Part shown: positions 55,329-59,091 of the stretch, one piece after another
How the letters are laid out: each line of letters begins with the position of its first letter
How positions within the stretch are numbered: the stretch's first letter is position 1
From: Ischnura elegans
Lineage: Eukaryota; Arthropoda; Insecta; Odonata; Coenagrionidae
Direction of reading: 5' to 3'
Length of the DNA stretch: 64,000 nt
Assembly: GCF_921293095.1 (NCBI RefSeq)
Contig: NC_060251.1
Span: 98,504,566-98,568,565 of the forward strand
Notes under the pieces: generated by a model
What the model was told of the DNA's origin: nothing
What the model saw: only the letters and a program-made list of their open reading frames with translations
Database searches by the model: none
Program-made: the position numbers and the translations under genes

Positions 55329-55688
55329 TTAAGGGAAAGAAAATTTTAAAAAAAACAGGGTACTAAGTAGAGGGTTTTAAACTAATTTTAACACTTTTCA
55401 TAATCGAGAAAACTTCATTTGTTGAAGAAATATTTTGTAAATTCATAATTTTTCGATATATTTTTTTACATGAGGGAAAATAATTGTGTTTTTATATTTC
55501 GGGGGGGGGGAGGAGGGAGTCCAGACCCTCCCCCTGGCAACGCCAATGCCCTTATCCCCCCACGTGCACTGCTTTATATTGCCAAGGGTTCCCCTTCACT
55601 CTAAATAGTCAACAGTCAGTTTGTGGCTAAACAGTCTCTGATAGTAAACAAAAATGGTTCCAAAATTTCCGCCCAGAAAGACTCTTAA

Positions 55689-58600
55689 CCCATTAGTGCC
55701 CAAATGATTTTTTTTACAAAAATTTCAATTTTTTAACCTGAATTACTTTATATGAACTCATTGATACTAAATAAATGATTTTTTAAATTTTTTGCATTTT
55801 TCAATGTAGAAATATTTACATGCAACTCAAGTTGCTCGTGGGCACTTGAGTGAACTAAATTCAGGATCTTCATTAGTATTGTAATGAGAAAGATACTTTT
55901 TTTTAAATGTTACATGTTAGTCATTTTATTCTTTTATATCACTAATTCGGATGCATCATAGATACAATGAGCATAAAATATTAGAGTTACATTTTTTTAA
56001 ACAGTTTTTACCGGGTGTTTCCACCATGTACAAAATATTTCGTCATTTCTCATGAAATGCAAGAAAACATTCTGGGTGTAAAGAAATATTACATTTTTTG
56101 CAAATGTAAACTGTTCTTTTTTTACACTGAGCACATACTTTATACTTCGATGACCCTTTAGTTATCAAATGGTCTAAGTGATCAGTCCTGATTTCCTCAG
56201 CCCCCGTATGTGATTGTCTAAAACCACGTCCAGCAGATGGAGATCCAAAATGCCTCATCATGTACAGAGCGCATTCTCGTCGAAACTGTAAATAGTCCAT
56301 TGTACTCCCCACATGTCGGTGTAACAACCAGCCCTGAACACATGACACGTCTACTGCCCAGGCGAAAAATGGCCACCACCACTTTTTTGTCCTGATGTTC
56401 ACCCTATACATGGCCAATAGTTGGTCACATAAATCTACTCCTCCCATGAATTTGTTGTACTCTGCAATGGCAAGAGGAATAGGAACAGTAACATTTTTTT
56501 TCTCTTTCCTTGAGTAACGGTTTACAACCTTATTTCCTCCCTGGATACAATTTGTCATCATTGTTACCACTGCATTATCGTTCCAGCGAGTAACAAGTAT
56601 GTCACCATTGGTTCTTTCCTCCATCGTTCCTCTAGCTTCTTTTTTGAATTTATTTTTTTCTGTTAACTCATTTTCTGCATACTTCACTCGATTTTCACGT
56701 AGTGTGCCAGTCCCTCCAATTTGCATATCCTTTAAAGTGTACAGTAACTTTTCAGATGTGAAAAGGTTATCGAAGAACAACCTTGAACCTTTTTCTAGTT
56801 GACTCTTTTCCAATAAGCCCACAACTACATCACCTCCTTGACCAAGATCAGACTTCGGGATTCGAGTACACAATCCTCCATAGGGCTCTGCGTGAATTAT
56901 ATGGCCATTTGATTCTGCCAGACACCATAGTTTGAACCCAAACCTAATTGGTTTTCCTTTTATAAACTGCTTTGCGCCATGTTTTCCACAATATGGAATT
57001 ATAGTTTCATCAACACAGCAGTTCATCCTGGGAGGTAATAGCTTAAAATTTCTGTTTAAAAATTGAAATATTGGCCGTATTTTATATAATCTATCAGAAG
57101 TATCAAGGTTTGTGTTGTCTGCTAAGTGTAAGTAGCGGAGAATATCATCAAATCTATTCCTTCTCATTGTTTCTCTGACAATAGTGACATTGCAGTCATC
57201 ATCTGTGTTCCAAAAGAGGCGTTTTCTGGGTAAAAAGTGGTATCCAGAGAATAGCAATATGCCAAGAAATGCATATATCTCTTCACTAGCTACGCTGAAT
57301 CCATGATTCCCTCTCAAGTTCGCATACATATTTGTTTGTTCTACTATGTGCAACACGAAATCCTCAGAAAAGAAAACCCTAAAGGAATCAAAGGGTGACT
57401 GATTGATCGAGAATCTACTCGGAGTTAGAGGGGGGATAAACTCAGGTAATTTAAAATTTAACTCAGTTAAATCGCGCGACCATTTTTTTGTTGAATCTTT
57501 TAACTTGCGTTTTTTGGCCATCCTTTTGCACCCTTTGTATGTCGACGGTTGCTCTGACTGCGATTCTTCAGGCAGAGTTTCCCTCGAATGAAGCTGTCCT
57601 TCTGCATCCAAAACACGTCGTGGTAGATGCGTTGGATCTCCAGTCACTTCCGCATCTGATTCATCGGAATCTTCATCCGTAATAGCCTCAGCACCTTCCT
57701 CCGGTCCAGTTATAATTATTGTCTGCGGCCTGTGTTCGTCACCCTCTTCCTCAAGTATATTTATTATTTCATTTACGGTCAGACGCTGTCGAGACCTGAA
57801 AATACATCATTTAAGTTTATATTTACACGGGAAATCGTAAATTCATATGATATAAATAACTTGTTAAATGAACTTACATTTTAAAAGAATGTCTCAATAG
57901 ACGAACAGTCTCAGCAAGAACAGCCCTCACTGCAAATCACTCGGCACCTACAAATGCTAATAGCAAAAAAGCTAGTTCATAAATGTTATAGACGTTTAAA
58001 GCATGGAAATGATCAATATTATGTAAGGTAATGTGGGGAGTATGCGACCCCTAAATAGCATACATCAATTTTAACTAGCTTAGGAAAATTTTCTAGGCTT
58101 GCTAAAACATGAGATTCAATGTATAATATGTAGGTGAATCACTGAAAAAATTCTCTCTCTATACGGCGGGGAAAGTGCGCCCCCCCATCTAAACTAAATA
58201 TAATACCCGAGTTCCAAAATTTAGAGTAAAGCAAGGAAAACCATTCCATAAAGAAGAGGAAACAAGATACAGTTCTTACCTTACACCTCCGATGCGTTTA
58301 TTCTTAGAGAACTGCGGTGTCGCCTCTCATCAAAACCAACTAAGACTACGAGATGAATGGACGGGTATATTTTCTAAGCATGTGAAACGAGAACTAAAGG
58401 GATAATTATTACAAAGTTGTTGGCTCTGGTTCCATTACAATGTATGGAATATGTTGCACTACCGCCACCTGCTTTGAGAACAGAAATACGATCTTCCTCA
58501 AGGGAGGTCGCACTTATCCCGCAGTCGCACTTACTCCACCTCACCTTAACATTTAGTAAGTAATACATAAGAAAAACCTTTTTACACCTTGTTGAATGCA

Positions 58601-59073
58601 TGGGAAGAACTGAAACTGGTATTCAATCTTTCAAGGCAAAGGAGACAAATTCTAAGGGAAAGGCAAAAATTAGTACTACTATGTGCCCACGAGCAACTTC
58701 AGTTGCATCAAAAGTTTGACCATCAATAAAAAAATTATTTTCTAGCCAAATCACGAAATATTTTACTCAAAGAGAATTACATATTTACTTACCATTTTGG
58801 AGTATTCAAATCCAATATGCATTCCGCTGGACAGATGGTATATATTCCCGAGCAGCACAGAGTCAGAAGCACAATTGGCGGCGACGGACCCTAAAAGGGT
58901 CGGCGCAGCAAAGCACCGTTATCTCTTTGCTTGGACGCTTTTAAAAAATAACCTAGTTAGAAGAAGGAATAACCCTTAAATAGGGTATTCTCCTGCATAT
59001 TTGTGAGCTTCCAGGAGGGAAGGAGAATTTTTTTTCCTTGATGCAACTTAAGTTGCTCGTGGGCTTTAATGGG
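55689..59073 (-). mobile_element. piggyBac transposon, apparently complete (3,385 bp)
   Basis: Bounded by TTAA at 55685-55688 and 59074-59077. The ends are CCCATTAGTGCCCA on the left and, read inward from the right, CCCATTAAAGCCCACGAGC. A subterminal motif, TGCAACT-AAGTTGCTCGTGGGC, occurs near the left end (55822), near the right end (59041) and, inverted, at 58683, as is usual for transposase-binding repeats of this superfamily. The transposase at 56043-57879 is open throughout. Whole ends plus an open transposase make this the only element in the window that might still be active. Whether it is transcribed cannot be told from sequence. Confidence 0.92.
56043..57879 (-). CDS. piggyBac transposase, start codon formed by splicing
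   Basis: Cuts and pastes DNA at TTAA. The main exon (57795-56043) is open for 584 codons. Read upstream it reaches an acceptor (GTATTTTCAG) at 57796. Across an 82-bp intron the donor GTAAGT follows AAAAT at 57878, so splicing joins AT and G to make ATG and the start MSRQRLTVNEIINILEEEGD. Unspliced, the same ATG is followed at once by TAA. The acidic N-terminus (EEEGDE, DEDSDESD) is typical. The DDD triad is present: D263 (CVDETIIPYCG), D343 (FFDNLF) and D455 (GGVD), near the insect reference positions 268, 346 and 447. The C-terminus carries the cysteine-rich zinc domain (CAQCKKRTVYICKKC, HPEC, H). A shorter start at MAKKRKLKD would not need splicing but loses about 92 residues. Confidence 0.9.
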
Positions 59074-59091
59074 TTAAGGAGACATCCAGTA

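Follow-up and report, generated by a model that had tools for sequence, protein, structure and literature searches.

The 64,000-nucleotide stretch of Ischnura elegans DNA analysed here (hereafter the window) carries what looks, from comparison with its relatives, like a member of a piggyBac family that was mobile recently and in which a short predicted intron divides the start codon of the transposase. The split start is inherited, as related families in this genome repeatedly show a predicted intron at the start codon or close to it. We consider it about 80% probable that these elements (a recently mobile family, an inherited split start and a short intron most likely spliced constitutively) make up the full explanation. 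Transcription of the transposase, on the minus strand, would begin at an internal promoter of the element, and the short intron, which has near-consensus sites, would be removed, most likely constitutively. Removal would join AT to G and create the only AUG from which the full 584-residue protein can start, and the enzyme, if active, would cut and paste the element at TTAA. A single junction would decide whether the full-length protein can come from an AUG, and it offers a simple handle on transposase expression. No description of an intron-split piggyBac start codon was found among the titles and abstract openings of the open-access papers that literature searches listed; prior publication is possible.

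Architecture of the element and its transposase

The element (Table 1) has TTAA on both sides, matching though imperfect inverted ends (CCCATTAGTGCCCA / CCCATTAAAGCCCA) and repeated subterminal motifs located at three places, so that the boundaries drawn in the first-pass annotation hold. In the window copy and the copies aligned with it, the terminal inverted repeats are short and begin with CCC, as in the piggyBac superfamily. The subterminal motif is 24–27 bp long, occurs three times in the window copy and contains a CAACTTAAGTTG-like palindrome, which reads CAACTT(A/G)AGTTG or CAACTGAAGTTG. Two of its occurrences, at 59038–59064 and 58685–58711, face each other and are 96% complementary. 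Similar palindromes are present in the sequence pieces retrieved for two related families described below (the 49% and 54% families).

Table 1. Features of the window copy (strand "." marks features given without orientation)
Positions	Strand	Feature	Basis or remark
55685–59077		Whole piggyBac element, window copy	Transposase on minus strand
55685–55688	.	TTAA target-site duplication, 3' side of element	Sequence and copy alignment
55689–55702	+	Terminal inverted repeat CCCATTAGTGCCCA, element 3' end	Inverted-repeat pair and copy alignment
55820–55843	-	Subterminal motif near element 3' end	
55925–55930	-	AATAAA, candidate polyadenylation signal	112 nt past stop
56043–57795	-	Exon 2, transposase, from G of ATG to TGA	584 codons once joined to AT
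56049–56138	-	C-terminal Cys/His-rich stretch	Alignments; weak profile score
56433–56435	-	Catalytic aspartate D455 of spliced protein	By alignment
56769–56771	-	Catalytic aspartate D343 of spliced protein	By alignment
56988–56990	-	Codon 270	Cys in window copy, Tyr in other five young copies
57009–57011	-	Catalytic aspartate D263 of spliced protein	By alignment
57519–57521	-	First in-frame internal ATG, codon 93	
57796–57877	-	Intron, 82 bp, phase 2, splitting the start codon; GTAAGT...TATTTTCAG	Arrangement shared by two other families
57878–57879	-	AT of start codon	
57878–57958	-	Conserved block ending in AT; putative 5' leader (exon 1)	
58030–58555	.	Nested repeat in element 5' non-coding region	Imperfect inverted ends, TA-flanked
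58685–58711	+	Subterminal motif, inverted copy	
59038–59064	-	Subterminal motif with palindrome CAACTTAAGTTG	Candidate transposase site
59060–59073	-	Terminal inverted repeat CCCATTAAAGCCCA in element sense, element 5' end	Inverted-repeat pair and copy alignment
59074–59077	.	TTAA target-site duplication, 5' side of element	Sequence and copy alignment

The 5' non-coding region harbors a nested repeat. Its inverted ends are imperfect and bordered by TA, which hints at a small DNA transposon. The repeat is present in nine younger copies of the family and missing from all five older copies examined, and was thus carried along with the element. Part of it (roughly positions 8–394 of 526) is found elsewhere in the genome at 89–90%, and 31 of the 40 matches scored, out of 511 candidates, sit outside the window family.

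The minus-strand frame at 56043–57806 is open for 587 codons; counted from the spliced ATG, the transposase has 584 codons and a stop, the length originally annotated. The 586-residue translation of 56043–57803 matches PF13843 at residues 136–489 (E = 4.6e-76), which covers profile positions 1–346 of 349, and its sequence matches in the PDB (9c0f, piggyBat, 8.7e-27; 6x67, 4.5e-21) liken it to the solved piggyBat and piggyBac structures. The complete set of catalytic aspartates that had been proposed was recovered: D263, D343 and D455, which we take to be the residues with the catalytic role in piggyBac transposases, align with the three aspartates of piggyBat. The C-terminal Cys/His pattern is kept in the window transposase and the three relatives aligned with it. 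This stretch scores 17.7 bits against Pfam C1_2, under the cut-off of 26, and a second, C-terminal stretch of piggyBat matches the window transposase at 6.7 bits only. By its TTAA, CCC ends, PF13843 domain and DDD triad, all of them sequence characters, the window element belongs to the piggyBac superfamily. A Pfam search with five further ORFs from the window was negative at E ≤ 0.1. Viral contigs were scanned with the transposase by a method sensitive to close relatives alone; of the 11 pattern hits, none was confirmed.

A start codon divided by a predicted intron

In the sense orientation, the region reads TTTTAAAAT/GTAAGTTC...TATTTTCAG/GTCTCGACAG, where slashes mark the exon borders, i.e. 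a GT-AG intron whose removal would join AT to G. The annotated 82-bp intron parting AT from G is exact to the base (57877–57796, GTAAGT...TATTTTCAG). The unspliced RNA does read ATG-TAA, as had been pointed out, but this is a necessary outcome of any AT/GTAA split and is no separate feature. The GTAAGT donor and the TATTTTCAG/G acceptor are both close to the usual splice consensus. When the 600 nt upstream were shuffled with dinucleotides preserved, an in-frame ATGTAAGT...YAG/G split start arose in six of 5000 shuffles, and in 35 of a second 5000 when ATGTRAG was also allowed. Recurrence of the split start in two other families makes chance less likely still.

The splice signals are well kept within the subfamily. 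Of the 21 aligned sequences, 20 have GTAAGT as the donor hexamer, the exception being L043 with GTAGGT, and 20 agree in all nine acceptor bases, L055 having one change. Four older copies lack the start, because the base after the acceptor is T (L048, L049 and L052) or because AT has become AA (L057). In L056, a relative at 80%, the intron core is 49% identical (33/67), while all 15 of the 15 splice-signal bases are unchanged and the flanks of the intron are 84% (68/81) and 79% (93/117) identical. In nine older copies (L046–L054), core and exon 2 have diverged alike (82–87% versus 84–88%), so the case for divergence specific to the intron comes from L056, with L055 (83% versus 92%) pointing weakly the same way; exon 2 of L057, at 48%, is not comparable.

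Start regions were compared across 14 piggyBac families of the genome in a grouping of our own, comprising the window family, seven families from 20 loci, one represented by L001–L008 and five more. A split AT/G is found in three of the 14. Besides the window family, these are a family at ~54% protein identity (the 54% family, L058–L061), which has AT/GTAAGT...AG/G with an intron of 89 bp and the donor in all four copies retrieved, and a family at ~49% protein identity (the 49% family), which has the same AT/GTAAGT...AG/G with an intron of 645 bp. Two of the three copies of the latter that were checked, L082 and L084, carry GTAAGT, and L083 carries GTTAGC. Such recurrence in two related families makes the intron look both real and old. 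In a further relative, the 40% family, an 88-bp intron lies 8 nt into the coding sequence (ATGGCAAG/GTTAGT...TTTAG/T).

In the remaining families, the start regions were read by eye and these readings serve as leads only. An acceptor-like AG precedes the ATG by 0–2 nt in the L071, L074, L077 and L090 families and by 6 nt in the L001 family. In L075/L076, L091 and L092, the frame opens without a nearby ATG and has an acceptor-like AG at that point, and in L088 and L089 the ATG has no adjacent acceptor. The open frame of L091 contains no Met in its first 68 residues, and L092 contains none in the 113 residues upstream of its Pfam match; these two families may need an upstream exon too. Because some other piggyBac families of this genome seem to depend on such an exon, gene prediction that insists on a main-frame ATG could mistake them for truncated copies.

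These arrangements bear on the idea that an intron near the start is mainly an exon-trap design, in which a strong acceptor, an ORF without its own ATG and a downstream poly(A) signal yield host–transposase fusions from copies lying in host introns. The idea has been put forward for T. ni piggyBac and PGBD3, as the accessible text of PMC2268245 relates. The window element has the acceptor, no ATG near the start of the ORF and an AATAAA 112 nt past the stop, and several other families, read by eye, have an acceptor-like AG at their start or close to it, which fits as well. Moreover, a host exon could be spliced to the acceptor with which the element completes its ATG. However, in three families the element brings its own donor and AT, which would be superfluous for pure host capture. 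As the main purpose of the intron, the trap is in our view unlikely, even though it is compatible with the inherited, constitutively spliced start that we favor.

Where translation probably begins

The sequence between the split ATG and the first internal ATG, at codon 93, has the character of coding DNA. Over codons 2–94, the first, second and third codon positions are 57, 64 and 34% identical to the 54% family, 52, 52 and 31% identical to the 49% family, and 50, 52 and 26% identical to the 40% family. The third positions are the least identical in all three comparisons, which is why this stretch looks coding. The window transposase and the 54% family also have in common the motif TDEDSD.SD.EVTGDPTHLP. 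The Met at codon 93 is missing in the three relatives aligned. Taken together, the coding-like codons 2–94 and the unshared Met place the start upstream of codon 93. The split ATG is the sole AUG candidate that we see for the full protein and is probably where translation starts, in preference to a non-AUG codon. The earlier proposal that the full-length start is assembled by splicing thus gains from both the recurrence of the split in related families and the apparent coding conservation of the upstream stretch.

The opposite reading takes the split ATG for a coincidence and has the protein start unspliced, either at codon 93 or from a codon other than AUG. The window family does possess the ATG at codon 93, and the shuffles did produce a split start by chance (6/5000). 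Against this stand the conservation of codons 2–94 as coding sequence in three comparisons, the absence of the codon-93 Met from the three relatives and the recurrence of the split start in two other families, which together render coincidence very improbable.

Copies, age and insertion sites

The 1.72-Gb host genome contains six full-length copies of the element, namely the window copy and L038–L042, each with different flanks and TTAA on both sides. The first-pass annotation had proposed a count of near-identical copies and of empty TTAA sites across individuals; near-identical copies turned up within this one genome, together with uninterrupted relatives of two insertion sites. The other five full-length copies are 99.3–99.8% identical and sit at other TTAA sites; pairwise, the six differ by 6–14 substitutions. 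TTAA flanks both sides in all eight copies inspected in the alignment. The 587-codon frame is uninterrupted in five of the six full-length copies, the exception being L042, which has a 17-bp internal deletion and a stop at codon 338. Over the alignment columns counted, the six copies carry 26 private substitutions, a mean of 0.13% per copy (two in the window copy, three each in L041 and L038, five in L040, seven in L039 and six in L042). Four of the 17 codon differences among the young copies are silent, a pattern as expected from drift after insertion.

One of the differences private to the window copy, Tyr270Cys (Y270C), falls in the catalytic core, seven residues after D263. At the equivalent position, both the 54% and the 49% family have Tyr, the 40% family has Phe and piggyBat has Arg. 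The activity of the window copy itself is uncertain because of this change, which may impair the copy or may reflect an error in the assembly.

Less similar copies form a graded series. L044 and L045 over their whole length, and L043 over 2.7 kb, align at 94–96% identity; pieces at 90–92% turned up on C4, C5 and C9 in end searches; and most of the older copies, ~86% identical, are found on four small contigs, C17, C16, C14 and C13. The older subfamily (L046–L055 and L057) is concentrated above all on C17 (10.3 Mb) and has shared breakpoints, which may be a sign of a sex-limited, B or heterochromatic chromosome. The genome is rich in piggyBac sequences in general: 116 PF13843 matches were scored out of 9,242 candidates; many of them have long open frames, and identical scores recur in groups.

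Uninterrupted relatives of the insertion site were found for two of the young copies by joining the flanks around one TTAA. For L041, the 40 matches scored out of 1,792 candidates are 89–92% identical, cover nearly the whole query and lack the element; the single uninterrupted relative aligned has TTGA at the site. For L039, one place matches at 90% over the whole query, with other units of the array weaker, and in the alignment the uninterrupted relative has TTAA once. L039 (C10:43700031-43705830) is a young copy inside a local repeat array, with units on both sides. These empty sites are paralogous sites and not alleles. With the joined flanks of the window copy (40 scored of 654 candidates), both halves match only at their own place. 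Elsewhere it is the right half that matches, a few of these matches crossing the TTAA by at most eight bases, which is too little to count.

Constitutive or regulated splicing

The closeness of the splice sites to the consensus and the shortness of the intron favor constitutive splicing. A further proposal is that a piggyBac clade has kept a splice-dependent start down to ~49% protein identity and that host or element could control activity through the single splice, for example by competition with an upstream GTGAGG or by piRNA-linked intron retention. We hold this to be quite unlikely. About as improbable, to our mind, is a regulated switch modelled on P-element IVS3, with the intron retained in the soma or under piRNA silencing and removed in a permissive germline. 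Such a switch would draw on the need for splicing to obtain the full-length protein from an AUG and on a GTGAGG pseudo-donor 53 nt upstream, invariant in the 21 aligned subfamily sequences; P elements use pseudo-donors upstream of IVS3, according to the accessible text of PMC7776569. However, the form of the sites and the shortness of the intron suggest constitutive removal, retention leads to ATG-TAA with no long product from that start, and intron size ranges from 82 to 645 bp between families. The pseudo-donor lacks significant support as an element of the switch: the leader of the 54% family aligns with its block no better than shuffles, of which 66 in 1000 are at least as good, and it is therefore not counted as evidence. 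Control of tissue specificity of the P-element type by this intron may exist but is unsupported, and a constitutively spliced, inherited split start is the reading we retain.

Comparison with known systems

The window element resembles T. ni piggyBac and piggyBat in its TTAA target, CCC ends, PF13843 domain and DDD triad and, less surely, in a candidate C-terminal Cys-rich stretch, and differs in having its start codon split by an intron. The transposase gene of T. ni piggyBac is not known to have an intron-split start codon. A potential 3' splice site is described just upstream of its ORF in the part of PMC2268245 available.

The P element belongs to a different transposase superfamily from piggyBac. 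Its IVS3 is like the window intron in that the full transposase depends on intron removal. In P elements, IVS3 retention gives a 66-kDa repressor (PMC7776569, as far as its accessible text goes), whereas retention in the window element gives ATG-TAA and not a shorter repressor from the same start.

Within the piggyBac superfamily, Pokey of Daphnia has a short intron of 68–84 bp, the splicing of which was confirmed by RT-PCR, and removal of this intron changes a 487-residue product to one of 668 residues (accessible part of PMC3849761). Pokey and the window element are thus alike in requiring removal of a short intron for the longer protein. The Pokey intron lies in the coding region, and a split start codon goes unmentioned in that part of PMC3849761.

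In the human domesticated CSB-PGBD3, a 3' splice site adjoins the start of the transposase, and a poly(A) signal lies further down (PMC2268245). In sequence, the window element shares this layout, with a 3' splice site at the start of the ORF and a poly(A) signal after it. In CSB-PGBD3, the acceptor precedes the first Met by 7 nt and the host gene provides the donor, whereas in the window element the acceptor lies inside the ATG itself, and the donor and the AT are supplied by the element.
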